Positions 35,001 through 51,216 of a DNA stretch of 64,000 nt are shown piece by piece (positions within the stretch are counted from its first letter, which is position 1; every line of letters begins with the position of its first letter). The stretch comes from Myxococcota bacterium. GTDB lineage: Bacteria > Myxococcota_A > Bradymonadia > UBA7976 > UBA1532. The position numbers were made by a program, and so were the translations under genes. The notes under the pieces are model-generated. The model had not been told where the DNA came from, searched no databases, and saw only the letters and a list, made by a program, of their open reading frames with translations. The DNA lies in contig CAUJDF010000087.1 in NCBI GenBank assembly GCA_963169045.1, positions 1-64,000 of the forward strand, in the 5' to 3' direction.

Positions 35001-36240
35001 GCCGGCGCGCCTCGACCTGACGTGGTCCGTGCAGATCGGCCCCGACGTCGAGGCGACATCGCAGCCCGTCGTGGGCGACGGCAGCCGCGCGCTCACCATC
35101 ACGGCCGACGGGCTTCGCTTCGACCCTCTCCGAGCGCCGCCTCCGCGCCAGACGGTCGCCCGGGCGGAGGTGCGACTGAGCGACCTCGCCGGCAATTCGG
35201 TCGCCGTCCCGCACGCGCTGTTGCTCGATGTGCTGCCGCCGCCCCCTCGCACCACGGTTTCGGTGTCCAGCTCGTTCGACGCTGCCTCGGGATTCGACGC
35301 GTCCTTCCTCAGCCCGGGCGACGAGGACCGGGGGGCCCCCCTCGTCGAGATCCGGATCACAGTGACCAATCCGCATCGGCTTCCGGTGCGTCTGGCGCTT
35401 GCCAGCCCAGACACTGTCGCCCTCGAGCTCGCGGTTGGGACGGGCCTCTTGGCTCAGACGACAACAACCATGACTCGCGAGCAGATCGATCACCGTGGGC
35501 AGAGAATTGAGGCATCCGACGACGTCGTGGAACTGCGCGTGAACGCTCGCATAAATGACGCGCCCCTATCCGGCAGGGAAGTATTGGACGTTTGCTCGAT
35601 CCTTACCGCCATCTCTCAAGGCGTCTACGTTCACACCCCCGTCGCCCCGGATGATATCCGCTTCGCCATGATCTCATATTTCCTCGAAGGGTGTCCGGAG
35701 CTCACCCCCGCCCCCACCGGCACGTGGACCCTCCGCGCCCCGATCACCATCGACAGCCCCGACGCCCCGCTCAGCGCCGACGGCACGCTCTTCCTTCCCC
35801 CCGGCACCACGCGCACCCTCCGCCTCACCGCCACCATGCCGGCGCTCCCGCCCGAGCTCACCGACCTGCTCACCCTCACCGAAGGCCCGGAGGGCTACGA
35901 GCACGTCCCGTACGTCCGCGACCTGCAGAACCACCTCCTCTACGCCCGTCCGCTCGACGGCGAGCTCGCCGACCGCCTCTGCACCACCTGCTTCGACGGC
36001 GAGCCCGACTGCGAGGTCGCCTGCCAGCCGAACGAGGAGTACATCGGCTACCGCGTCCAGGCCCTCACCGACGTCCGCCTCCGCACCTGGGAGGCCCCCG
36101 AGGACGCCGGCCGCCCCTGGATCATCCGCACGCTCTCCGCCGACGGCACGCTCGCCAACGACACCGGCGCCATCGATCCCCCGCGCCTCCGCCTGCGCCG
36201 CGACCTCGACCACTGGACCGACGCGCCCGACGCGCCCTGA
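32056..36240 (+). CDS. large lipoprotein with carboxypeptidase-regulatory-like and Ig-like modules
   Basis: A 1,394-residue exported protein. ATG 32056 follows GGGGGA and yields a signal with lipobox LVAGTAC near residue 18. The N-terminal part (about 30-100) resembles a carboxypeptidase regulatory-like sandwich (RTDAHGHFRIEGI), followed by a helical part starting RLTPLSTLLVAVGEG. A second copy of this arrangement begins near 415 (GHVIKGPARGVVVE, TTAADGAFSM, then VVTPLTDLAWARARG). Ig-like stretches with DRTPPAIGAPSPAPGSSV and DNTAPALGI lie between and after. The C-terminal 150 residues are Cys-containing and unassigned. It is divergent from the giant PKD gene and probably works with it at the surface. 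Base composition shifts near 35.5 kb. Confidence 0.85.
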   Translation: MGRSILRAAAATIICLVAGTACDDVETGVRAASVLDGEVWFLGPVPDARVVLYRLDAAGQTTYETETRTDAHGHFRIEGIEVTGDFLAVSDIDGIAFRDPHTGRDGAYAHGTSLRAPIEGLDLLQERPVRLTPLSTLLVAVGEGLRGAGAEFPLRDAHAAFNEWLTLDPVASPIGEPRSGQSEARRHRLLLEGLSALAAHAANDAGLTPGTSLTADRLLSALADDGRGPPPPRFDGRGDAGPLAVRAGPGSFPLTAQTLRARYAEAVRDRLRADAWAGLTEGDVADLLGSLRCTATPFFEACADDGTDRTPPAIGAPSPAPGSSVAGVITIQIAADDPETGIDAMTLARLPGDGLAPVPLEDLDDRPGVARAAFDTRTLVGRPIARFRAAATNRDGVEASLDFELTLANHPVGQLTGHVIKGPARGVVVEASALRPDGSDVPLGRATTAADGAFSMTVHEWRGPVILRAQGVVDGDTVSTYRDEARGRALSWDVTQTLTAVLPDFDPAAAIRPVVVTPLTDLAWARARGLAAQRGHDLLESYGESLGLIARHFGLSDAGALLHVRPASAEQPVTPPPTENVRYLLVLGCLSQRSLDLSLALDPRAPDGITALDLVAALREDVQSDPWFDGRRGTEPLLVGRGGAAVPLGDGLRADLATACARWLSQQGSALGLPVAMVADDLERMSRATNDLFAADLATRSFDDGAPAVEVELRVEDGVLEDAGADAPASVSGRLSMEVRATDLAGVRSIAVTAPDMETAMRVVETPQPASGESGDAVWQGEIDTRVLGDGPYALEVTVTDVLGNEASRRLTFVVDNTAPALGIGLPIGVTLHEGRWYTNARRLVVPVRLEDAAPGVRAVARLGGSEAAVEGGAVELPLPDQEGIHRLEVSATDPLGNASRVELAVAVDRTPPTLEQRPTSYVDEAPLDADRDLASAPRISLVGPGPIPLRKWQDRWDEESDNPIVFRWEVQDAESGGAGTAPARLDLTWSVQIGPDVEATSQPVVGDGSRALTITADGLRFDPLRAPPPRQTVARAEVRLSDLAGNSVAVPHALLLDVLPPPPRTTVSVSSSFDAASGFDASFLSPGDEDRGAPLVEIRITVTNPHRLPVRLALASPDTVALELAVGTGLLAQTTTTMTREQIDHRGQRIEASDDVVELRVNARINDAPLSGREVLDVCSILTAISQGVYVHTPVAPDDIRFAMISYFLEGCPELTPAPTGTWTLRAPITIDSPDAPLSADGTLFLPPGTTRTLRLTATMPALPPELTDLLTLTEGPEGYEHVPYVRDLQNHLLYARPLDGELADRLCTTCFDGEPDCEVACQPNEEYIGYRVQALTDVRLRTWEAPEDAGRPWIIRTLSADGTLANDTGAIDPPRLRLRRDLDHWTDAPDAP

Positions 36241-36311
36241 CCCTCCCCCGGGCCGCCGCCCGCCCCCCGCCACCGCCGCCACGCACCCCCTCGCCCCGCG
36301 CCCGCGCCGGC

Positions 36312-36332
36312 CCGCTGAACGCCGTTCAGCGG
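36312..36332. promoter_or_regulatory. 9-bp inverted repeat upstream of the ether-lipid-type operon
   Basis: CCGCTGAAC (36312-36320) and GTTCAGCGG (36324-36332) are perfect arms separated by GCC. A second, looser pair follows: GTTACG (36335-36340) and CGTAAC (36357-36362). They lie in the 186-base gap between the large lipoprotein gene and the HAD gene. They may be an operator for a TetR-type regulator, or the first may end the upstream transcript. No T-tract follows. Confidence 0.45.
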
Positions 36333-36426
36333 ATGTTACGCACCCTGCAACCCCGCCGTAACGCTTGCCATTTCGGGGGACGCGTGGTTCTCTCCTGCGC
36401 CTTTGAGCCGGGGAAGAGGGTTGCGA

Positions 36427-37104
36427 ATGAAGGCGGCCGCCTTCTACGACGTCGACGGCACGCTCGTGAGCACCAACGTCGTGCACACGTACGCGTACTA
36501 CGCGGTGAACGTGCCCAGCCTGCGCGACAAGCTGAAGCGCACCGGCGGCCTCGTCGCCGCCCTGCCCTTCTACGCGGTGGCCGACAAGGTCGGGCGCAAG
36601 TTCTTCAACGACATCTTCTATCGCAACTACGCGGGCATGACGGAGGACCGCCTCCACGTCCTCGGCGAGGAGATGTTCGAGAAGATGATCCGCCCGCGCT
36701 TGTTCCCGACGATGCTCGACCTGATCAAGCGCTCGACGGACGAGGGCTACCGGCAGGTCATCGTCACCGGCGCGCTCGACACCATCGTCAAGCCGCTCTC
36801 GGCCTTCCTCGGCATCGACGACTGGGTGGCCAACCGCCTCGAGATCGTCGACGGCAAGGCCACCGGCCGCCTCGAGCCGCCCGTCCTGGCCGGCCCGGCC
36901 AAGGCGCTGTGGGTGCGGCAGTACATGAAGCAGCACGGGCTCGACCCCGACCTCTGCCGCGCCTACGCCGACAGCTCGAGCGACATCCCCATGCTCAGCG
37001 CCGTCGGCCGCCCGTGCGCGGTGAACCCCGACACCCAGTTGAAGACCGCGGCCCACGCCCACGACTGGCCGGTGCTCCTCGTCGGCGACAAGGCGAAGGA
37101 CTGA
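36427..37104 (+). CDS. HAD-superfamily phosphatase (HAD-IB / SerB-like)
   Basis: A 225-residue soluble hydrolase. Motif I is YDVDGTL with nucleophile Asp8 and general acid Asp10. Motif II is VIVTGA (Thr near 116). The late acidic motif is YADSSSDIPML near residue 180. A helical cap of about 70 residues follows motif I, as in HAD-IB enzymes that act on phospholipid or lysophosphatidate-type substrates. ATG 36427 is preceded by GGGAAGAGGG. It is the first gene of a five-gene run with gaps of 3, 2, -4 and -1 bases. By position it corresponds to the phosphatase (elbB-like) of the myxobacterial elb ether-lipid cluster; this match is from memory. Confidence 0.9.
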   Translation: MKAAAFYDVDGTLVSTNVVHTYAYYAVNVPSLRDKLKRTGGLVAALPFYAVADKVGRKFFNDIFYRNYAGMTEDRLHVLGEEMFEKMIRPRLFPTMLDLIKRSTDEGYRQVIVTGALDTIVKPLSAFLGIDDWVANRLEIVDGKATGRLEPPVLAGPAKALWVRQYMKQHGLDPDLCRAYADSSSDIPMLSAVGRPCAVNPDTQLKTAAHAHDWPVLLVGDKAKD

Positions 37105-37107
37105 GAG

Positions 37108-38718
<1,611 letters not shown>

Positions 38719-38720
38719 CC

Positions 38721-41700
38721 ATGAGCCCGCACAACGGACGGCAGCCACTGAGTGTCCGACAGACGCTCGCCGGCAAGCATCTGTTCGTCACGGGCACCAC
38801 CGGCTTCGTGGGCAAGGTGCTACTGGCGATGATCGCCGCGCAGCTGCCCGAGGTGCGCCGCGTCAGCGTGCTCGTGCGCACCAACTCGACGTACCCCGAC
38901 GCCCGCGAGCGATTCGACGCGGTGGTCGCCCTCAGCGATCCCTTCCAGGCGATCGCCGAGAAGATGGGCCACGAAGAGATGCAGCGCTGGCTCGACGAGA
39001 AGGTGAACGTCGTCGCCGGCGACATCACCTTCGACCGCCTCGGCCTGTCCGACGACGACTGGACCGAGCTGACCGAGCGCGATCCCATCGATCTGTTGAT
39101 CAACGTCGCCGGCAAGGTGAACTTCAACCCGCCGCTCGACCAGGCGCTCGCGGTCAACGCGCTCGGCGTCGACGACAAGTTCGAGCTGGCGAAGGCCGCC
39201 GGCGCCGCCGTCGTCCACATGAGCACCTGCTTCGTGGCCGGCGAGCGCAGCGGTCCCATCCCCGAGGACGCGGAGGTCATCGGCTACACGCCGAGCGGCA
39301 AGCCGTTCGACCCCCTGCGCGAGCGCGAGGACGCCGTCGCCCTGGCCGAAGAGATCCGCCGCCGCGCCGACGCGCAGGTCATGGAGACGCGCTTCGCCGA
39401 CGAGGCCCGCGAGGCGCTCACCCGCGAGGGGCTCGACTACGAAGACCCGGAGCGCCTGCGCGAGGCCCTCGACACGTACAAGCAGCGCTGGGTCGACGCC
39501 GAGCTCGTCCGGGAGGGCACCGCCCGCGCGAAGCAGTGGGGCTGGACGAACACCTACACGTACACCAAGAGCATGGGCGAGCAGCTCACGCTCAAGAAGG
39601 GCGCGGAGCTGGGCGTCCCGGTGTGCATCGTGCGCCCGGCGATCGTCGAGAGCAGCCTCTCCTTCCCCTTCCCGGGCTGGAACGAGGGCGTCAACACATC
39701 GGCGCCCATCGTCTATGTCATCTGGAAGGGGCACCGCTACGTCCCCTGCAATCCCGACAACATCCTCGACATCGTCCCGGTCGATTACGTCGCGCGCGGC
39801 ACGCTCCTGGCCGCAGCGGCGCTGCTTCAGGGTCGCGCGAAGCGCGTGTACCAGTTCTCGACCGGCGACGTGAACCCCATGTCGATGGAGCGGACGGTCG
39901 AGCTGACGAACCTGGCCTGGCGCAAGGCGTACGACGACGAGTTCAGCAAGGACGCCTTCAAGCGTTACATGAACAAGTCGCTCGAGGCCGTGACGGTCTC
40001 GCCCGAGCGCTTCGACCGTTGGGGCGCGCCCGCGATCAACCGGTTCGCGAAGACGGCGGCGAAGCTGCTCGGCGGCATCTCGGCGCCGGGTCCGGTCCGG
40101 CCGGTCGTGCGCCAGCTCGAGAAGACGGCGAAGGGGCTCGAGAAGGCCAGCAAGACGACCGCTGGCATCATGGAGCTGTTCCAGCCCTTCATCGAAGAGA
40201 ACAACCCGGTCTTCTCGTCGCGCAACGTCCGCGACGTGACGAAGGTCCTGGTCGACGAGGAGCGGGCCGCCTTCGGCTACACGCTCGACGACATGGACTG
40301 GCGCCACTACTGGATGGACGTCCACCTGCCGGGCCTGCGCAAGTGGGTGTTCGGCGAGCTCGACGACAAGCTCAAGAAGGTGAAGAAGGTCGCCCGCGCC
40401 CGCGACCTCGTCGAGGTGTTCCGCACGGCGACGCGCGCGTTCGCCGAGCGCAAGGCGCTCTCGCACTTCACCCACGAGAAGGGGCTCGAGGCCACCTACA
40501 CCTACGAAGAGTTCTGGGAGGCCGCCCGCCGCGTGGCCGCTTGGCTGCGCGCCCAGGGCGTGCGCGCCGGCGACCGCGTCGTGCTCATGTCGAAGAACGA
40601 GCCGGCCTGGCCCATGATCTACGTCGGCATCCTGCTGGCCGACGCCGCCTCGGTGCCGGTCGACCCCGAGATGCCGGTGGACGACGTCAAGCGCATCGCG
40701 GCCAAGGCCGAGGCGCGGCTGGTGATCGTCCACGAGAGCAGCGAGGCCGACTTCGGCCTGCCGACGTTCTTCGTCGGCGATGTGTTCGAGGCCGAGCCGC
40801 TGGCCGACGATGCCATCGAGCTGCGCGACCGCAGCGAAGAGGTGGCGAGCCTGCTCTTCACGAGCGGCACGACGGGCGATCCCAAGGGTGTCATGCTCAC
40901 GCATGGCAACTTCACCGCCCTGCTCGCGTCGCTGCACGGCACGTTCAACATCGGCGCGCGCGACCGTTTCCTCAGCGTTCTTCCGCTCTTCCACACATTC
41001 GAGTTCTCGTGCGGCATGCTCATGCCGCTCAGCGTCGGCGCCTCGATCTGCTACCTCGAAGAGATCGACGGGCCCCTGCTGCGCAGCGCGCTGAAAGCCA
41101 CACGGCCGACGGCGCTGATCGGTGTGCCCGCCCTGTGGGACCTGCTGTACCGCCGCATCGAGACGCAGGTCGACGACCGGGGCGAGTCGCAGCGTCTGGC
41201 GTTCAACGCGATGATGCGTCTGTCGCGCCACCTGCGTCGGCAGTACGGCCTCAACGCCGGGCCGTTCCTCTTCAGCGAGGTGCACTCGACGCTGGGCGGC
41301 AACATCCGCCACCTCATCAGCGGCGGCGCGGCGCTCGGCGACAACGTGCTGCGCGCGTTCGAGGGCCTCGGCTTCGAGCTGCTCGAAGGCTACGGCCTGA
41401 CCGAGGCGGCGCCGGTGCTGACGGTGCGCCGGCCCGGCGACCGCAAGGGCGGCGGCTCGGTGGGCAAGCCGATCCCCTCGGTGCAGATCCAGGTCGTCGA
41501 CCCGGACGAGGACGGCGTCGGCGAGGTCGTCGCCCGCGGCGACAACGTGATGATGGGCTACCTCAACGACCCGCAGGCCACCGCCGAGACGGTGCGCAAG
41601 GGGTGGCTGCACACGGGCGACCTCGGCAAGCTCGACCGTGACGGGCGCCTCATCCTGGTGGGCCGCCGCAAGGAGATCATCGTCACCAGCAGCGGCAAGA

Positions 41701-43343
41701 ACGTCTATCCGGACGAGCTCGAGCCGTTGTACGAGGACCACCCGCAGATCAAGGAGTTGGCGATCGTCGGCGTCCCCGATCCGCAGGGCGACGAGCGCGT
41801 CGCGGCGCTGGTCGTCGTGGTCGACGACGCCGAGGACGACGCGCAGGAGCAGGTCCGCGCGCACTTCCAGAAGGTCGCGGCGAGCCTGCCCGACCACAAG
41901 CGCGTGCGCACGCTGAAGTTCTGGCACGGCGAGCTGCCGCGTACCGCCACGCGAAAGGTCAAGCGCAAGGAGGTCCGCGCCGAGCTCGTGCGGCTCCTCG
42001 AGATCGACCAGGCAGCGAGCGGCGAGGGGCGCGAGATCCCGGCCGGCCGCGAGCCGGCGTGGGTGTATGCCACGATCGCCGGTCTGTCGGGCGTCGATCC
42101 GGTCGCGGTGGAGCCGCAGAGCGACCTCGTCACCGACCTCGGTCTGTCGTCGTTGCAGCTGGTCGAGCTGCGCTCGCTGCTGGAAGAACGCGGCGGCAAG
42201 CGCCTCGACGGCGACGCCCTCTCTCGCGCGCGCACCGTCGCCGAGGTGGCGGCGCTCGCCGGCAGCGGCGGCACCGCGCTGGTGCCCGTCGTCGCCGTCG
42301 AGAACCCGAGCGACGACAAGGTCGAGGTGCCGTCGCTGGTGCGTACGGCGGGTCGCCGCGTGCTGCATCGTGCGCAGGTGTCGACCTACGACCGTCTGTT
42401 CGACGTCCGGGTCGACGGCGAGGAACACATCCCGCTCAACCAGCAGTGCATCGTCATTGCGAATCACTGCAGCCACCTCGACGCGGGCCTGGTGAAATAC
42501 GCGCTCGGCGACTATGCGCCGAACCTCTCGCCGCTCGCCGCGAGCGACTATTTCTTCGACAACAAGGCGAAGCGCACCTACTTCGAGCAGTTCACGAACC
42601 TCATCCCGGTGGAGCGCGGCGGCTCGCTCGAGACGAGCCTGCGCCAGGCCGAGCAGGCCATCCGGCAGGGGCGCATCGTGCTCGTCTTCCCCGAAGGCAC
42701 GCGGTCGCGGTCCGGCGAGCTGCAGAAGTTCCGGCATGGCATCGGCTACCTGGTGGCCCAGAGCGGGCTGCCCGTGCTGCCGTTGTGGTTGCGCGGCACC
42801 TACAAGGCGCTCCCGAAGGGCGCGGCCTTCCCGACGTCGCGGCGTCTCTCCGCCCGGATCGGCCCGGTCATCGGCCCCGAGGTGTGGCGCAAGGACGTCG
42901 AACGAATGAGCCACGCCCAGCAGTATGCCTTCATCGCCGAGCGCCTCCAGGCCGGCATCGAGGCGCTGCGCGAAGGCGCGCCGTACCCGTGGCTGGCGAA
43001 GCCCGCCGAGGCGAAGAAGAGGGCCAACGGCCTCGAGTCCGTGTTCGACGAGCTGAACGGCAAGTTCAAGCCCGAGAACGTCAAGGCGCCGATCACCTGG
43101 TACTTCAGCCTCGGCGAGGCCGCGGACGGCAAGTGGACGGTGTCGGTGAAGAACGACGCCTGCGTCATCAAGCCGGGGCGCCCCGAGGGCAAGGCCGACT
43201 GCGTGCTGAAGACCGACCCGCGCACCTTCGAGAAGATCGTGCGCGAGCGGTACGTGCCCGGCTTCGCCGAGTTCGCCGAGGGCAAGATCAAGACCAACGA
43301 CCCCAACCTGCTCTTCACCTTCCAGAACGTCTTCGGCCTATGA
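38721..43343 (+). CDS. elbD: multidomain ether-lipid megaenzyme (reductase-AMP ligase-ACP-PlsC-SCP2), ElbD-like
   Basis: A 1,540-residue protein with five readable domains. (1) Fatty acyl reductase-type Rossmann domain, residues about 18-520: GTTGFVGK at 25-32, YTKSMGEQ near 280. (2) AMP-binding acyl ligase, about 560-1095: FTSGTTGDPKG near 711, YGLTEAAP, GDLGKLDRDGR. (3) Acyl carrier protein, about 1110-1195, with the pantetheine Ser in DLGLSSLQ near 1140. (4) PlsC acyltransferase, about 1220-1440: NHCSHLD near 1247 and FPEGTRS near 1324. (5) SCP2-type lipid-binding tail, about 1450-1535. The first four match myxobacterial ElbD, which makes alkyl-ether lipids. Its start and stop nearly touch both neighbours. 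Confidence 0.88.
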   Translation: MSPHNGRQPLSVRQTLAGKHLFVTGTTGFVGKVLLAMIAAQLPEVRRVSVLVRTNSTYPDARERFDAVVALSDPFQAIAEKMGHEEMQRWLDEKVNVVAGDITFDRLGLSDDDWTELTERDPIDLLINVAGKVNFNPPLDQALAVNALGVDDKFELAKAAGAAVVHMSTCFVAGERSGPIPEDAEVIGYTPSGKPFDPLREREDAVALAEEIRRRADAQVMETRFADEAREALTREGLDYEDPERLREALDTYKQRWVDAELVREGTARAKQWGWTNTYTYTKSMGEQLTLKKGAELGVPVCIVRPAIVESSLSFPFPGWNEGVNTSAPIVYVIWKGHRYVPCNPDNILDIVPVDYVARGTLLAAAALLQGRAKRVYQFSTGDVNPMSMERTVELTNLAWRKAYDDEFSKDAFKRYMNKSLEAVTVSPERFDRWGAPAINRFAKTAAKLLGGISAPGPVRPVVRQLEKTAKGLEKASKTTAGIMELFQPFIEENNPVFSSRNVRDVTKVLVDEERAAFGYTLDDMDWRHYWMDVHLPGLRKWVFGELDDKLKKVKKVARARDLVEVFRTATRAFAERKALSHFTHEKGLEATYTYEEFWEAARRVAAWLRAQGVRAGDRVVLMSKNEPAWPMIYVGILLADAASVPVDPEMPVDDVKRIAAKAEARLVIVHESSEADFGLPTFFVGDVFEAEPLADDAIELRDRSEEVASLLFTSGTTGDPKGVMLTHGNFTALLASLHGTFNIGARDRFLSVLPLFHTFEFSCGMLMPLSVGASICYLEEIDGPLLRSALKATRPTALIGVPALWDLLYRRIETQVDDRGESQRLAFNAMMRLSRHLRRQYGLNAGPFLFSEVHSTLGGNIRHLISGGAALGDNVLRAFEGLGFELLEGYGLTEAAPVLTVRRPGDRKGGGSVGKPIPSVQIQVVDPDEDGVGEVVARGDNVMMGYLNDPQATAETVRKGWLHTGDLGKLDRDGRLILVGRRKEIIVTSSGKNVYPDELEPLYEDHPQIKELAIVGVPDPQGDERVAALVVVVDDAEDDAQEQVRAHFQKVAASLPDHKRVRTLKFWHGELPRTATRKVKRKEVRAELVRLLEIDQAASGEGREIPAGREPAWVYATIAGLSGVDPVAVEPQSDLVTDLGLSSLQLVELRSLLEERGGKRLDGDALSRARTVAEVAALAGSGGTALVPVVAVENPSDDKVEVPSLVRTAGRRVLHRAQVSTYDRLFDVRVDGEEHIPLNQQCIVIANHCSHLDAGLVKYALGDYAPNLSPLAASDYFFDNKAKRTYFEQFTNLIPVERGGSLETSLRQAEQAIRQGRIVLVFPEGTRSRSGELQKFRHGIGYLVAQSGLPVLPLWLRGTYKALPKGAAFPTSRRLSARIGPVIGPEVWRKDVERMSHAQQYAFIAERLQAGIEALREGAPYPWLAKPAEAKKRANGLESVFDELNGKFKPENVKAPITWYFSLGEAADGKWTVSVKNDACVIKPGRPEGKADCVLKTDPRTFEKIVRERYVPGFAEFAEGKIKTNDPNLLFTFQNVFGL

Positions 43344-44314
43344 GCGACATCGTCCTCGTCACCGGCGCCGGCGGCTTTCTCGGCCGGCACCTCGTCCAGA
43401 CCCTGCGCGGACAGGGCCGCACGGTCCGCACGCTGGCCCGCACGGCGCGCGCCGCGCTCGACGGCGTCGACCAGCAGCTCGGCTCGGTCACCGACCGTGG
43501 CGCGGTCGTGCGCGCGCTCGACCGCGTGGGCGCCGTCTACCACCTCGCCGGCATGGTGAGCCGCGACGCGAAGGACGCCGGCGCCATGAACGAAGTGCAC
43601 GTGAAGGGCACGCGCACCGTGCTGCGCGCGTGCCTCGAGCGTGGCATCCGCGACGTCGTGCACGTCAGCACGAGCGGCACTGTCGCCGTCGGCAAGCACG
43701 ACGACTTCGTCGCCGACGAGGCGGCACCCATCGCCTGGGATGTCATCCGCGGCTGGCCGTACTACGAGTCGAAAGCGTTCGCCGAGAAGGAGGTCGCCGC
43801 GTTCGTGGCCGAGGGCCTGCCCGTGCGCATGGCGCGACCGACGCTGCTGCTCGGCCCCGGCGACGTCGACGGCAGCAGCACCGGCGACGTCGTGAAGTTC
43901 TTGTGTGGCGACGTGAAGGCGGCCCTGCCCGGCGGGCTCAGCGCCGTCGACGTGCGCGACGTGGCGGCAATCCTGCCGACGCTCATGGAGCGCGGGGCCC
44001 CGGGCGTCGGCTATCTGCTCGGGGCTGGCAACATCACGGTGGCCGACTTCCTGAAGCTGCTCGAGCAGGTCAGCGGCGTGAAAGCACCGACGTTCAGCCT
44101 GCCACGCAAGCTGATCGACCGCGCCGGCGACCTGATCAAGCAGGCCTCGCGGCTGAAGGCGCTCGGCGGCCTCGATCCGCAGACGTTCGAAATGGCCTGT
44201 CATTACTGGTACTTGGACGACAGCCGCGCCCGGCACGACCTCGGCTGGGACCCACGCCCCCTGCCCCACACCCTGCGCGACACCGTCGAGGACCTTCGCC
44301 CCGGCGTGAACTGA
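43340..44314 (+). CDS. NAD-dependent epimerase/dehydratase (extended SDR), elbE-like by position
   Basis: A 324-residue extended short-chain dehydrogenase. The nucleotide-binding motif is GAGGFLG at residues 9-15, with a later HLAGM and a Ser in HVSTSGT. The active-site pair is in YYESKAFAEK (YxxxK) near residue 138, followed by RPTLLLGPGD. The C-terminal part gives substrate specificity and is close in style to 3-beta-HSD or dihydroflavonol-reductase-like proteins. ATG 43340 overlaps the megaenzyme stop (ATGA). In the ether-lipid setting it would reduce or oxidise a keto or hydroxy lipid intermediate; this is inferred. Confidence 0.9.
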   Translation: MSDIVLVTGAGGFLGRHLVQTLRGQGRTVRTLARTARAALDGVDQQLGSVTDRGAVVRALDRVGAVYHLAGMVSRDAKDAGAMNEVHVKGTRTVLRACLERGIRDVVHVSTSGTVAVGKHDDFVADEAAPIAWDVIRGWPYYESKAFAEKEVAAFVAEGLPVRMARPTLLLGPGDVDGSSTGDVVKFLCGDVKAALPGGLSAVDVRDVAAILPTLMERGAPGVGYLLGAGNITVADFLKLLEQVSGVKAPTFSLPRKLIDRAGDLIKQASRLKALGGLDPQTFEMACHYWYLDDSRARHDLGWDPRPLPHTLRDTVEDLRPGVN

Positions 44315-45141
44315 TGCGCATCGCCATCGTGACGTGCGCACGGATGCCCGAGCCCGACGAGGACGAGCGTCCCCTCATGGACGCCCTGGCCGCCGCCGGC
44401 GTCGACGCCACGCTCGCGGCCTGGGACGATCCGACCGCGGACTGGCCACGGTACGACGCGGCCGTGCTGCGCTCGACGTGGAACTACCACCGCGCGCCGC
44501 AGGCGTTCGCGGCCTGGGTCGACGCGCAGCCGCGCCTCTGGAACCCGCCGTCGATCGTGCGCTGGAACGCCCACAAGCGCTACCTGCTGGATCTGGAACG
44601 CGCCGGCATCGACGTGACGCCCACGGCGCTGCTGGTGAAGGGATCGGACGCGCGACTGGCGGACGTGATGCGTGCGCGCGGCTGGTCCGACGTGGTCGTC
44701 AAGCCGGCGGTGTCCGGGGGCTCGTACGCGACGCTGCGGGTCACGTCTACGAACCTCGGACAGGGCGAGGCCCACCTGCGGCGCGTCGTCGCGACGGAGG
44801 ACACGCTCGTTCAAGCCTACCTGCCGTCGGTCGAGGGACACGGCGAGCGGGCCATCGTGTGGATCGCCGGGGAGCTCACCCATGCCGTGCGCAAGAGCCC
44901 ACGCTTCCTCGATGGACACGAGGCGGTGGACCTGGTGCCGATCGAGCCGGATGAACGGGCGTTCGCGACGCGTGTGCTCGCGCCCTACGTGGATTCGATC
45001 CTCTACGGTCGGGTGGACGTCGCCCGTGGTCCGGATGGTCGCCCGTGCCTCATGGAGCTGGAGCTGATCGAGCCGTCGCTGTTTCTGCGGAGGCATCCGC
45101 CGGCGATCGACCGTCTCGTGGATGCCATCGCCCGGCTCTAA
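44314..45141 (+). CDS. ATP-grasp domain enzyme
   Basis: A 275-residue soluble protein of the ATP-grasp superfamily (glutathione synthetase/RimK-like). Visible features are the N-terminal strand-loop MRIAIVTCARMPEPDEDE, the STWNYHR segment near 50, VVKPAVSGGSYATLRV (nucleotide-binding strand with Lys and flexible loop) near 128, VQAYLP near 165, and YGRVDVARGPDGRPCLMELELIEPSLFL near the end with metal-binding Glu residues. Such enzymes form amide or peptide bonds via acyl phosphates. The ATG shares its A with the previous stop (TGATG), so it is coupled to the ether-lipid-type operon. I recall no such gene in the described elb cluster. Confidence 0.85.
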   Translation: MRIAIVTCARMPEPDEDERPLMDALAAAGVDATLAAWDDPTADWPRYDAAVLRSTWNYHRAPQAFAAWVDAQPRLWNPPSIVRWNAHKRYLLDLERAGIDVTPTALLVKGSDARLADVMRARGWSDVVVKPAVSGGSYATLRVTSTNLGQGEAHLRRVVATEDTLVQAYLPSVEGHGERAIVWIAGELTHAVRKSPRFLDGHEAVDLVPIEPDERAFATRVLAPYVDSILYGRVDVARGPDGRPCLMELELIEPSLFLRRHPPAIDRLVDAIARL

Positions 45142-45728
45142 TCGCGGGTGGGCGCGACGACGACCACCTCGTCGAGCTCGTCGTCGCTGACGTCGGCACC
45201 GAGCAGGATCTCGCTGGCATAGCGGGCGGCGAGGCTGGCGGTCTCGCGGCGCTGGTCGCGCGACACGGTGCGGACCTGCTCGTGGGCCGTCTGCAGGCGC
45301 TTGGTGGTCGCGCGAGCGCGGTCGACGAGCTGACGGGTGATGTGCCTCAGGATCTTGTAGGCGAACGGCGTCGCGGCGTTGAACAGGCGTTCGAAGTCGT
45401 CGCGGACGAGCTCCGCGAGCACGACGCCGTCCTCCTCGGCGCGGACCTCGGCGCTTCGGCGCTGGCCATCGATGAGGCTCATCTCGCCGATCATCGCGCC
45501 GGGCCCGAGCACGACGATGCGCTCCGGATCGGCTCCGGCGAGCGTGCGGTACACGCCGACACGGCCGGTGACGACGACGAGGAAGCTGATGCCGGGGTCG
45601 CCCTGCCGGAACACGACCTGGCCGGCCTTCAGGCGGCGCGGCCGGACGACGCCCAGCAGCAGATCGAGCTCGCGAGGCGCGAGCTCGGCGAAGATCGGCA
45701 GCTTGCCGAGGGTGGCGGCGTCGAGCAT
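45138..45728 (-). CDS. cyclic-nucleotide-binding domain protein (second of a coupled pair)
   Basis: A 196-residue protein. Residues about 10-125 form a cNMP-binding (CAP_ED) beta-roll: LPIFAELAPRELDLLL, VVFRQGDPGISFLVVVTGRVGVY, then the phosphate-binding cassette region GEMSLIDGQRRSAEVRA with its Gly-Glu and Arg. The C-terminal 70 residues are predicted helical or coiled coil with no DNA-binding motif. Its stop overlaps the convergent ATP-grasp stop (CTAA). The start overlaps the stop of the upstream cNMP gene. Without an effector domain it may be a cAMP or c-di-GMP-type sensor acting through a partner. Confidence 0.88.
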   Translation of the reverse strand: MLDAATLGKLPIFAELAPRELDLLLGVVRPRRLKAGQVVFRQGDPGISFLVVVTGRVGVYRTLAGADPERIVVLGPGAMIGEMSLIDGQRRSAEVRAEEDGVVLAELVRDDFERLFNAATPFAYKILRHITRQLVDRARATTKRLQTAHEQVRTVSRDQRRETASLAARYASEILLGADVSDDELDEVVVVAPTRD

Positions 45729-46949: not shown

Positions 46950-48410
46950 TCAGGCGTTCGGATTCGGACGCCGGTGGGTGCGGCACCAGGTCATGAGCCG
47001 CGCCTCCGGCGCCTCGGCCGGTCCGGTCACGAGCGCGTAGCCGAGACCGCAGCGGCAGGTCTCGCCCGCGCGGTGCGGGCGCCGCCGATGCAGGTGCTCC
47101 CACGACCCCGGGTTCATCCAGCGCGCAGCGCCGCGCTCGACCTCGCCCTCCGTCGGGCGGTGGGTGTGGCCGAAGACGACGACCCGCGCGCCGGTGTGAC
47201 GCACGATGGCCCGAGCCACGCCACCCAGGCTGGGATGGCAGTCCGGCGAGGGACGCAACCGCCCGAGCACGCGCCACAGCTGCACCACGAGGACGCCCAT
47301 CGCCAGGTCGAGCGCCAGCTGAAGGCTGGTGTGCTTGACCCACGACCATGCCACGAGGAGACCCGCCGCCAGCAGCGCCACGAGGCCGAGCCGGTCGACG
47401 TAGAACGCCTGCGCCAGCCGCAGCAGGCTGGTCCCGATGGCGGGGCGCCGAAGCGCGTCGAGCGCGCGAAGGACGTCGAACGGCAGGCCCGATCGCCGCG
47501 CCAGCGTCTCGAGCCGCATCACGCGCGCCGCGGCGAAACGCGCGCGGTCGCGCCACCGCGCGATGCGGTCGGCGGTGGCCTCGCGCGCGTACCGGGCGAC
47601 CGTGGCGATGAAGCGGCCGAAGAGGCCGGGCAGCGACATCCCGGCCCGCGTGCGCGCCCAACGCACGAAGTCCCCCGCCGTCCAGAGGTCGAGGTCGTGG
47701 ATCGGCAGCGTGCGCACCCGGTTGGCGAAGAAGCGGAGCGCGACGTGGCTGAAGGAGGGCGCGATGCGCGTGGGACGCCGCAGGTCGAACGGGACGAGCG
47801 GATCCGGGAACGTGGCATAGGGATCGAAGCGATGACCGTGCTCGACGTAGGCGCGGCCCTGCTCGTAGTAGAACCAGTCAGTGAACGTGATGCGGCTGCG
47901 GACGACGTCGGGCGCCGATGAGTGCCGGACGATGTGTTCGACGAGATCGTGTCGTACCTGCTCGAAGCCGAGCTCGACGTCGTGGTTGCCCACCACGAAT
48001 ACGCAGCGATTGCCGCTCTCGACGAATCGACACAGGGCGCGCAGGACGCGACGATGGTAGCGACAGACCGTCTCGAGCTTCCAGCGGGCGCGCTCCTCGT
48101 CGTAGGCGAGGCCGTAGAGGTGCTCCTCCGTCTCGAGCCCGAGGCGCTGGCCGCGCTGGTCTGGCCGCAGGTCCATGTGCATGAAGTCGACGGTGTCTCC
48201 GTTGAAGACCAGCGTCCATGGGCGATCGTCGCGGCGATGGGCGGCGTGGTAGTCGAGGAAGCGCCGGAGCTCGCGATCGAGCGTCGCGAGCTGCCGCAAC
48301 GCAGCGAAGCCCAACGGCGGACGCAAGGCCCCGCCCAGGTGCAGATCCGAGACCACCAGCAGGTTGGCCGCCGGTGCGTCCGCCACGGTGTGTTCCGCGA
48401 TGCCGCTCAT
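46950..48410 (-). CDS. membrane-associated calcineurin-like metallophosphoesterase
   Basis: A 486-residue protein with the ordered dimetal motifs of the family: SDLHLG at 21-26, NGDTVD near 70, GNHD near 140, HGHRFD near 193 and GHTHRP near 411. A segment of about 200 residues is inserted before the last motif and includes two hydrophobic helices at roughly 338-380, so the enzyme is probably held at the membrane. The first half resembles LpxH-type UDP-diacylglucosamine pyrophosphatases, but the insertion and tail do not. The last 50 residues hold His/Cys/Arg ([17 protein letters not shown]). Substrate unknown. Confidence 0.88.
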
Positions 48411-48610
48411 GCCCCGCTTCTTCGGGATCCGGGTCCCCCGGGTCGAGACGCCCGGGTCCGAGGCGCGGTGGGATCCCGCTCGCAGGCGCGTCCGCGCCGG
48501 CCGGCCTCGTCGTCAGGTAGACGCGCCGGCGGTGACCCGGGTCACGGCCTGGGGCGATTCCCCTGCGAGGCCGTTGTGTCAGAGGGGGCACCCGACCCAT
48601 ACTGCGCCCC

Positions 48611-49186
48611 ATGCGCGCTTTCGCCGTCTTCGTCATGGGGCTGACGCTCGGAGCCGCCGGGTGCGACGACACCGGCTCGTCTTCGGGCGGCGATCCGAAA
48701 GATGCGGCGCCGGTCGGCGCCGACGCGGCGCGGCCCGACGCCGGCCCCGCACCCGCCGACACCGGTCCGGCGCCCGATCTCGGCCCGACGCCCGACACCG
48801 GGCCCGATCCCGACGCCGCGCCGCCGGCCGACGGCGGGCCCGATCCCGACGCCGGGCCCGATCCCGACGCCGCGCCGCCGGCGGACGCCGCACCGCCCGA
48901 CCTCGGCCCGACGCCCGAGGACGTCGACGGCGACGGCATCGACAACGACGCCGACAACTGCCCCGACGTGTTCAACCCGGGCCAGGGCGACCGCGACGGC
49001 GACGGCGCCGGCGACTCGTGCGACCCCGATCCCGGCCGCATCAACCTGCGCCTCGTGCGCGGCCGCCTGCTCTACGTGGGCGGCACATCGAGCAACGGCA
49101 ACCTGACGCTGACCGGCGGCGCCTCCGCCGGCGCGCACGACGCCCGCTCCGGCCAGCTGAGGCTCCGCGGCCACCTCTCGCCCTGA
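48611..49186 (+). CDS. lipoprotein with Asp/Pro-rich linker and thrombospondin type-3-like calcium repeats
   Basis: A 191-residue exported protein with lipobox LGAAGC near residue 18. A long low-complexity stretch of Pro, Asp, Ala and Gly (about 25-105) serves as a spacer. It is followed by [20 protein letters not shown] and [12 protein letters not shown], which are thrombospondin type-3 calcium-binding repeats with the usual Cys. The last 50 residues are beta-rich (RGRLLYVGG). It is 26 bases upstream of the collagen-like protein gene, which also contains a DxDxD calcium loop, so the two may act together at the surface. Confidence 0.82.
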
Positions 49187-49212
49187 GCATGTCTCCGCCC
49201 CGAGGAACGAAC

Positions 49213-51216
49213 ATGAAGACGATGGCGCTCGCCCTCGGCCTGCTGCTTTTGCCGGCCGTGGCGAATTCCGCTCCCGTGACGCTGGTTTACGAGGGCGAGC
49301 TCGCCGATCTGGCCGGCACGCCCTTCGACGGCGACGTCACGATCACCTTCCGCCTGTACGACGCCGAGGACGGCGGGGAGCCGCTGTGGATCGAGCGCCA
49401 TGACGCGCTCGAGGTGCTCGACGGCTGGTTCGCGGTGGTCCTCGGGGCCGAGCAGGCCATCCCGCGCGACCTGGCGGGCGAGGACGGGCTGTGGCTCGGC
49501 CTTCAACCCGAGGGCGACGAGGAGTTCGCGCCGCGGCTGCCCGTCGGAGGGGCGCTGCGGGCGCAGTGGGCCGCCCAGGCCGAGGACGTGGCCGGGCGGG
49601 ACATCCACCCGGCGACCGTGAGCATCGGCGACCGACCGGTGATCGACGCGCAAGGCCGGTGGGTGGGGCCGATCGAGAACTTCGGCGGCGTGGGCCCGGC
49701 GGGGCCGCAGGGGCCGCAGGGGCCGGCGGGCGAGCGCGGACCGCCGGGCGCGCAGGGCCCGCGGGGCGACGAAGGGCCGGCCGGCGAGCGCGGTGCGCCG
49801 GGCGCGCAAGGCCCACGGGGTGACGAAGGTCCGGCGGGACCGGCGGGTCCGGCCGGCGAGCGCGGCCCGGCCGGCGAGCGCGGGCCGGCCGGCGAGCGTG
49901 GTCCGGCGCCGGCGCACGCGTGGGAAGGCACGCGGCTGCGCTTCCAGCTGCCCGACGGGTCTTGGGGCGCCTTCGCCGAGCTCGTCGGCGGCGCGGGTCC
50001 GGCGGGCGAGCGGGGCCCGGCGGGGCCGGCGGGTGTGCAGGGGCCGGCGGGCCCGCAGGGCGCCCAGGGGCCGGTCGGTCCGCAGGGCCCGGCGGGGCCA
50101 CGCGGCGACGTCGGGCCGGCGGGCGCCCAGGGGCCCGCGGGGCCGCAGGGCGTGGCCGGTCCGGCCGGTCCGGCGGGCGCCGCCGGCGCGCAGGGGCCGG
50201 CGGGTCCGGCCGGTCCGGTGGGCGCGGTGGGTCCGGTCGGGCCGCAGGGCCCGCGGGGTCCGGCCGCCGAGCTCGACATCGACGGCGACGCGGACGCCGA
50301 CGGCTTCGCCGACTGGATCGAGGTCGCCGCCGGCACCGACTACGACGACGGCGGCGACGTGCCCGCCGACGAGAACGGCGACGGCATCGCCGACTTCTTC
50401 TCGTACGGTGGCGGCCCCGGCGGGGGCGCGGCGCCGCGCGGCTTCATCCAGGTCGCCTCCGGCGAGTACGGCTCCTGCGGCATCCGTCCGGAGCGCAACA
50501 TCGAGTGCTGGGGCGGCAGCCGCTACGGCGAGGGCAACCCGCCGCTCGGGACGTTCCGCTCAATCGCCATCTCCCACACGTACGCGTGCGCCATCCGCAG
50601 CGACGAGAACGCGGAGTGCTGGGGCGGCTCGGTGCGCGACGCCCATGTCGAGCCCCCGGCGGGCCCCTTCAGCAAGATCGACGTCGGCTCGGACTTCGCC
50701 TGCGGCCTGCGCACGAACCGCACGATCGTGTGCTGGGGCAAGAACGACTACAACCAGGCCACGGCGCCCGCCGGGACGTTCACCGACGTCGCCGCCGGCC
50801 TCCAGCACGCCTGCGCGGTCGCGGCCGACGACGGCCGCCTCGTCTGCTGGGGCCGCAACTCGAACCAGGTGACGGCGCCGCCGGCCGGCGTGTTCCATAA
50901 GGTCTCGGCCGGCCTCGCGTTCTCGTGCGCCATCGACAGCGCCGGCCTGATCCGATGCTGGGGCATCAACGACTACAACCAGACGAGCTCGCCGGGCGGC
51001 ACCTACATCGCCCTCGAGAGCGAGTACCAGCGGACGTGCGCGCTGCGCGCCAACGGCACGGTGCGCTGCTGGGGCTACAGCGGCAATTCGCCGCAGCCGG
51101 GCCTGCCGCTCACCCAGGTCTCGGTCGGCAGCTACCACTCCTGTGCGTTGAACACCGCGGGCCTCGCCGTCTGTTGGGGCGATTCGTCGGGCGGCAAGCT
51201 GAACCCGCCGAACTGA
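49213..51216 (+). CDS. secreted collagen-like protein with RCC1-type repeats
   Basis: A 667-residue protein. ATG 49213 follows AGGAAC and starts a signal peptide ([15 protein letters not shown]). Residues about 25-160 are beta-rich. Two uninterrupted Gly-x-y blocks follow (about 163-236 and 264-352), predicted to form collagen-type triple helices, so the protein is probably trimeric. They are parted by a short segment ([11 protein letters not shown]) like phage-tail and clostridial collagen proteins. Residues about 354-400 hold Asp-rich calcium loops ([22 protein letters not shown]). From about 415 to the end, seven repeats with CGI/CAI/CAL and CWG motifs look like RCC1-type beta-propeller blades. 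Confidence 0.85.

Follow-up and report, generated by a model that had tools for sequence, protein, structure and literature searches.

The 64,000-nucleotide stretch of a Myxococcota bacterium analysed here (positions 1 to 64,000 of contig CAUJDF010000087.1, assembly GCA_963169045.1; hereafter the window) harbours five genes on the plus strand between positions 36427 and 45141. They probably represent a standard elbBCDE operon for ether-lipid biosynthesis followed by a lineage-specific ATP-grasp gene, with ElbC being a nickel-pincer nucleotide (NPN) enzyme that acts in the pathway. All five reading frames are open over the coordinates given below, and the genes, domains and junctions named in an earlier reading of the letters alone (the sequence-only reading) were recovered there. 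The locus itself is an already known kind of gene set. The two features for which an undescribed pathway variant had been proposed fall away, as most ElbD proteins carry an SCP2 tail like that of the megaenzyme and the ATP-grasp gene is a local neighbour that other ElbD loci lack; both leads are thereby closed.

The formation of the ether bond by the ElbD route is presented as an open question in the review PMC9131029, and for the single-histidine LarA enzymes structures have been solved while the reaction has not been assigned (PMC12611868). The co-occurrence of ElbC and ElbD, together with the conserved NPN-binding residues of ElbC, ties the one question to the other. If the proposed role is true, it would be the first one in lipid biosynthesis for the NPN cofactor, of which we know no earlier case, and the single-histidine LarA clade would gain a function other than racemisation. 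No paper joining the nickel pincer with ether lipids was found in the open-licence literature, in which elbC was found linked to ether lipids only in PMC9131029, the elb gene cluster to ethers only in PMC11868695, and DUF2088 treated only in PMC11770544.

Identity of the elb operon

The order of the genes predicted to encode a HAD protein, a LarA-type protein, a megaenzyme and a short-chain dehydrogenase/reductase (SDR) is the same as that of elbB (HAD), elbC (function unassigned; "unknown function" in the wording of this 2022 review), elbD and elbE (NAD-dependent epimerase family) in Myxococcus xanthus, as described in section 6 of PMC9131029. The assignment to an elb-type cluster made by the sequence-only reading agrees with this order. 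The elbB-like gene (36427..37104, +) encodes a HAD-IB family phosphatase of 225 amino acids (Pfam HAD, 123.8 bits; NCBIfam TIGR01490, 124.5 bits, cut-off 98.3) and is followed by the elbC-like gene (37108..38718, +; 536 amino acids). The elbD-like gene (38721..43343, +) encodes a megaenzyme of 1540 amino acids which carries, as expected of an elb-type megaenzyme, an acyl-thioester reductase, an AMP ligase, an acyl carrier domain and a PlsC acyltransferase on one chain, with an SCP2 tail behind them. The Pfam domains above their cut-offs are NAD_binding_4 (residues 23-359), AMP-binding (570-948), AMP-binding_C (999-1079), PP-binding (1114-1179) and Acyltransferase (1229-1357), whereas the Sterile domain (473-545) stays below its own (30.2 vs 35.4); by the same scan the reductase domain resembles those of fatty acyl reductases (FAR). 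Relatives of ElbD in Myxococcota genomes are near full length at 39-67% identity. The elbE-like gene (43340..44314, +), joined to elbD by an ATGA junction, encodes an SDR of 324 amino acids of the epimerase/3beta-HSD/HpnA-like type (Pfam Epimerase, 95.2 bits). No elbA was recognised directly upstream of the cluster, where a frame of 183 amino acids (35691-36240) gave no Pfam match and was not searched further.

The neighbourhood of ElbD was compared among 97 other non-duplicate ElbD loci, which were also examined for the tail and the ATP-grasp gene; the counts omit L003 and L004 (on the same contigs as L099 and L097, respectively), L098, L193 and L194. In 80 of the 90 loci with sufficient room ElbE follows ElbD at a distance of at most 1.1 kb, and ElbC lies at most 1.2 kb upstream of ElbD in 51 of the 78 loci with 3 kb of upstream sequence, 50 of these 51 also having the HAD gene. 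Where ElbC is located away from ElbD (21 loci, being those retrieved and a part of all such loci), 17 have the HAD gene immediately upstream of ElbC in the same orientation and one has it on the opposite strand; in three no HAD gene was found. A search of contigs with ElbD returned 80 loci, among which only L003-L005 match most of the protein; the matches of L006-L082 are confined to the AMP-ligase region or another portion of ElbD, and these loci were set aside. One genome (G313) encodes two full ElbD copies on different contigs (L132, L134), each followed by ElbE, with ElbC in neither of the retrieved stretches.

ElbC as a predicted nickel-pincer nucleotide enzyme

The sequence-only reading had correctly named the DUF2088 domain of the second gene and drawn nothing from it, yet this gene is the most informative one of the locus. 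Its product is a LarA-superfamily protein (DUF2088/Lar_N) scoring 793 bits against the NCBIfam model LarAH_14_15_16 (cut-off 740). In the sequences of the ElbC profile A1 (42 of 64 collected sequences, hand-picked for spread and including that of the window) Lar_N, the mark of the LarA superfamily, was detected in 42 of 42, whereas LarA_C was detected in only one. The best PDB matches of this profile, with both domains aligned, were 9q2u and 9q3k (E 2.2e-50) and 9q3j (E 9.4e-42), followed by entries of Mar2 and LarA at E 1e-14 or weaker. The former three are structures of LarA_Sp and LarA_Bw, which PMC12611868 describes as single-histidine nickel-pincer enzymes without assigned function; purified holo LarA_Sp is stated there to have held an unidentified ligand of approximately 316.5 Da.

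Seven residues of ElbC, namely D89, H131, K206, H222, Y366, H460 and H463, are invariant in all 42 sequences and align with D73, H115, K195, H211, Y307, H398 and H401 of LarA_Sp. According to PMC12611868, D73 is the ribose aspartate, H115 the catalytic histidine, K195 the NPN-linked lysine and H211 the nickel-ligand histidine, while Y307 and H401 belong to the active site. ElbC thus possesses counterparts of the NPN-linked lysine (K206), the nickel ligand (H222), the catalytic histidine (H131) and the ribose aspartate (D89). The second catalytic histidine of the racemases (H174 of LarA) has no histidine equivalent in the respective loop of ElbC, which is shorter than that of LarA_Sp, and ElbC was therefore not classed as a racemase. 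According to PMC7583248, LarA homologues in which H174 or K298 is missing possibly do not act on stereocentres by inversion and could catalyse another hydride-mediated reaction. It is plausible that ElbC is a nickel-pincer enzyme with a step in the ElbD ether-lipid route, and such a role is supported by the residues and by the co-occurrence described below and, less firmly, by the cofactor genes. A scan of viral contigs with the ElbC profile gave no match.

Co-occurrence of ElbC with ElbD and with cofactor genes

Among 377 Myxococcota genomes ElbC (at least 350 bits) was detected in 113 and ElbD (at least 437 bits) in 109. Both occur together in 107 of the 115 genomes that have either of them, the unlinked cases included. 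These limits were set and the tallies, that of LarC below included, made by hand, and the partial ElbD of G068 was left out. ElbC alone was found in six genomes (G068, G151, G260, G288, G334, G365) and ElbD alone in two (G183, G259). The ElbC-like NCBIfam model NF052592 exceeds its curated cut-off in 102 of the 377 genomes. One of the genomes with ElbC and without detected ElbD (G334, contig C17:580-2136) has a size of 11.2 Mb.

Genomes without ElbC or a full ElbD were also found to harbour an unfused set of related genes. In G187 (L218:3422-14010) it comprises, on one strand, genes for a HAD protein, a fatty-acyl reductase, an enoyl-CoA hydratase, an AMP ligase, PlsC and a TetR regulator, and additionally a weak match to PS_pyruv_trans; a partly similar set occurs in G177 (L219:5918-12478). 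In eight of nine such genomes searched (f17, f41, f43; the exception is G080) the matches to the reductase and the AMP ligase fall into a stretch of about 8 kb of a single contig. This set might correspond to ElbD in split form, with the LarA and SDR genes missing.

In the genome from which the window derives, the genes encoding LarB and LarC are adjacent and LarE is present as well, each of the three proteins scoring above its curated cut-off. LarC was detected in 106 of the 113 genomes with ElbC vs 169 of the 264 others (Fisher p 1.8e-10, uncorrected for kinship). Searches with Lar_N covered 80 of the 113 ElbC genomes, those with LarB 37 and those with LarE 18, and LarE exceeded its cut-off in 17 of the latter. 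ElbC is the sole Lar_N match in 36 of the 80 genomes; 35 of these 36 have LarC and 35 have LarB above the cut-off, both being missing in G330, and none has a match to LarA_C.

Evidence against a nickel-pincer role of ElbC and alternative functions

Several observations weigh against this assignment. The label ElbC was given by gene order and position alone. In ElbC the phosphate-binding K76 of LarA_Sp is replaced by L92 and H306 by P365, and the loop in which N185 lies is shorter and has no residue aligned with it; judging by these changes the chemistry of ElbC may differ from that of LarA_Sp or may have been lost. An AlphaFold model of ElbC from the single sequence was unusable (mean pLDDT 31.8). 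As reported in PMC7583248, LarAH14 of Frankia was inactive towards the substrates tried there, and LarAH group 16 was set aside as possibly not being LarA at all. The cofactor genes are ambiguous, too: LarC is common in the absence of ElbC (the 169 of 264 genomes above, an association uncorrected for kinship), and among 14 control genomes LarC was detected in six and Lar_N in only two, so LarC can persist where Lar_N finds nothing. One of the controls with LarC and without a Lar_N match is Corynebacterium glutamicum, for which a LarA homologue, GntE1, is reported in PMC7583248; LarA homologues can therefore be missed by Lar_N. Moreover, the window genome encodes a second LarA homologue (contig C58:189365-190225), about 118 kb from LarB and LarC, which share its contig, and the NPN genes hence need not serve ElbC.

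Alternatively, ElbC might have retained the LarA fold without binding NPN, being a structural protein or one with a different metal, in which case the route would include no nickel step. Besides the altered K76, H306 and N185 positions, this would be in line with the NCBIfam grouping of ElbC with LarAH 14/15/16, of which group 16 is described in PMC7583248 as being without the catalytic and NPN residues, and with three further histidines near the C-terminus (H334, H405, H416), which are also invariant in the 42-sequence alignment and could form another site. Furthermore, four of the six LarC-positive controls have no Lar_N match, and the cofactor genes are therefore no proof that ElbC uses the cofactor. 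We consider such a function without NPN unlikely, as the NPN-carrying lysine and the nickel-ligand histidine are invariant in 42 of 42 sequences and 35 of the 36 genomes in which ElbC is the sole Lar_N match retain LarB and LarC.

The ether bond could also originate from another enzyme. The window genome encodes two AGPS-like FAD proteins located about 33 kb apart on contig C41 (L216:1486-3054 and L217:1492-3039). Their best PDB match is AGPS (2uuu; E 2.2e-63 and 2.1e-60), although Pfam assigns them only general FAD-oxidase domains and the second one also matches D-lactate dehydrogenases (E 8.8e-39). Since both proteins are encoded, the ether bond could be theirs, which is a further point against the preferred explanation of the locus. 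ElbD and ElbE would then merely feed a fatty alcohol to a classical AGPS, in accordance with the FAR-like reductase domain of ElbD, and ElbB and ElbC would belong to an unrelated hydroxy-acid metabolism. Taking into account that disruption of the AGPS homologue in M. xanthus is reported to have had a minor effect whereas elbD mutants lost most of the ether lipid (PMC9131029), and that ElbC accompanies ElbD in 107 of 115 genomes even where the two are unlinked, such a division of labour seems unlikely.

The SCP2-type tail of ElbD

The C-terminal 145 residues of ElbD (1396-1540; 42906..43340, +) are predicted to hold an SCP2-type lipid-binding domain. In the protein of the window the signal is weak: SCP2 is not listed in the scan of the whole protein and reaches 22.7-22.9 bits (cut-off 21.3) when searched alone or in the genome, with the Pfam match spanning approximately residues 1468-1513. 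A profile of ElbD tails (A2; 40 of 83 collected sequences, hand-picked for spread, that of the window included) matches the SCP2-like domain of human MFE-2 (PDB 1ikt, E 8.8e-4), and Pfam SCP2 was detected at E 0.01 or below in 25 of the 40 tails, with a best value of 5.9e-7. The AlphaFold model of the tail, built from three sequences, is of low confidence (pLDDT 58). With this model Foldseek returned 393 matches, none of them reaching E 1e-3, and the top 15 consisted of six SCP2 domains and nine alkylsulfatases at root-mean-square deviations of 13-15. Alkylsulfatases bear an SCP2-like C-terminal domain. The fold model would thus provide weak backing for the SCP2 identity of the tail.

The sequence-only reading regarded the tail of this megaenzyme as new or at least notable. 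However, of the 95 other ElbD proteins with a complete C-terminus, 82 carry an SCP2-type tail and 13 lack it; L189 and L190, which end with their contigs, were omitted from this count. A new fusion was accordingly rejected, since the tail is the majority state, if not a feature of all ElbD proteins. In a tree of the AMP-ligase part with 95 rows (the window, the 82 tailed proteins and 12 of the 13 tailless ones, with the 1073-residue protein of L192 omitted) presence and absence of the tail are separated by one change on a branch with an SH-aLRT support of 91, the direction of which cannot be read from the tree. No separate SCP2-like frame was found in the retrieved stretches of the 13 tailless loci, and no paper linking ElbD with SCP2 was found in the open-licence literature.

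The ATP-grasp gene downstream of elbE

The fifth gene (44314..45141, +) overlaps the SDR gene at a TGATG junction and encodes a putative DcsG-like ATP-grasp ligase of 275 amino acids. Pfam gave no match for this protein at E 0.001 or below; it aligns over nearly its full length with DcsG (PDB 6jil, E 1.1e-35). Against the NCBIfam DcsG model it scores 193 bits at an equivalog cut-off of 360, and the label was therefore kept at "DcsG-like ATP-grasp".

While the TGATG coupling noted in the sequence-only reading is real, the idea of a conserved partner at the locus did not hold: the gene was found at none of the 97 other ElbD loci (downstream sequence of 2.5 kb or more was available for 84 of them), and among the loci examined it adjoins elbE only here. 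Across genomes, homologues occur in 111 of the 377 and, among the matches listed, lie near ElbD only in the window genome; as no more than six candidates were scored for each genome in this survey, the test at the level of the locus is the firmer one. In G037, which belongs to the same family, the best homologue (54% identity) is located on a contig other than that of ElbD and is flanked by two coding-like frames on the opposite strand. In G338 ElbD and an ATP-grasp homologue share one contig of 13.2 Mb at a distance of 1.6 Mb, and the family also occurs in genomes in which ElbD was not found, such as G356. The ATP-grasp protein was hence rejected as a conserved elb partner, and its gene probably stands outside the conserved pathway, the core of which would not need it.

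The sequence-only reading took the gene as a hint at a lipid joined to an amino acid or other carboxylate, for which the analysis gave no support. In such a case the gene would be a lineage-specific extension, its product ligating an amine or an amino acid to an ether lipid, or to an intermediate, that bears a carboxylate. Its position on the same strand with the TGATG overlap with elbE would fit such a function, as would the location of the three terminator-like sites detected in 36000-45600, none of which separates elbE from the ATP-grasp gene, although three sites are no excess over shuffled sequences (mean 3.4). Given that the 97 other ElbD loci all lack the gene, that its best homologue in G037 lies elsewhere between opposite-strand frames and that the family extends to genomes without detected ElbD, we regard this extension as very unlikely.

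Further downstream in the window (48364-51216, +) the translation shows by eye long collagen-like Gly-X-Y repeats and then apparent RCC1-type repeats.

Proposed pathway

"ElbBCDE" would act in five steps. The AMP-ligase domain of ElbD would activate a fatty acid and load it onto the carrier domain, as published in vitro for ElbD of M. xanthus according to PMC9131029. The reductase domain would then form a fatty aldehyde or alcohol; the same review reports that i15:0 aldehyde occurs in the wild type of M. xanthus and not in elbD mutants. In the third step the PlsC domain might acylate a glycerol-type partner while the SCP2 tail might shelter the chain between the active sites. ElbE would subsequently reduce or epimerise an intermediate, its inactivation being described in PMC9131029 as lowering the ether lipids of M. 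xanthus. Finally, ElbC as a single-histidine LarA-type NPN enzyme would perform a hydride transfer on a small partner that is hydroxylated and perhaps also phosphorylated, and a phosphate would be removed by ElbB, the HAD protein. An example of such chemistry would be a reductive etherification, in which hydride is transferred to a hemiacetal or oxocarbenium ion formed from the fatty aldehyde of ElbD and a glycerol-type hydroxyl group. That ElbC is indeed the nickel-pincer hydride donor needed for an AGPS-independent alkyl ether bond, with ElbB removing a phosphate, is quite doubtful and is put forward here as a tentative proposal.

The search of the window genome, which is 95% complete, yielded no desaturase of the CarF type (PF10520), and alkyl rather than vinyl ethers are therefore expected. 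As no plasmalogen would be expected by that route, the cluster might in this lineage yield a product other than an ether glycerolipid, for instance a wax-like or another reduced lipid, and in Pontiella ElbD homologues are present although ether lipids were undetected, as reported in PMC11868695. Since elbBCDE occur together as one set in a wide range of loci and phenotypes of elbD and elbE have been published for M. xanthus (PMC9131029), such a product appears highly improbable, and an ether-lipid operon remains the preferred assignment.

Comparison with known systems

The closest known system is the elb operon of M. xanthus (elbA-elbE; Lorenzen 2014, via PMC9131029), with which the locus shares the order of HAD protein, uncharacterised protein, reductase-ligase-carrier-acyltransferase megaenzyme and NAD-dependent epimerase, and from which it differs by the ATP-grasp gene behind elbE. 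The description of the operon in PMC9131029 does not mention an SCP2 tail, the comparison being one with this description and not with the M. xanthus sequence. The tail itself shares the sequence signature of a lipid-binding domain with the SCP2-like domain of human peroxisomal MFE-2, but in ElbD it is fused behind a PlsC acyltransferase. The ATP-grasp protein is similar over almost its entire length to the D-cycloserine synthetase DcsG, yet stays far below the equivalog cut-off of that enzyme. ElbC, in turn, aligns with LarA_Sp and LarA_Bw over two domains and keeps the NPN lysine, the nickel-ligand and catalytic histidines, the ribose aspartate and the active-site tyrosine and histidine, whereas the equivalents of K76 and H306 are replaced and the N185 loop is shortened; LarA_Sp and LarA_Bw are encoded in the context of sugar genes, ElbC in that of lipid genes.

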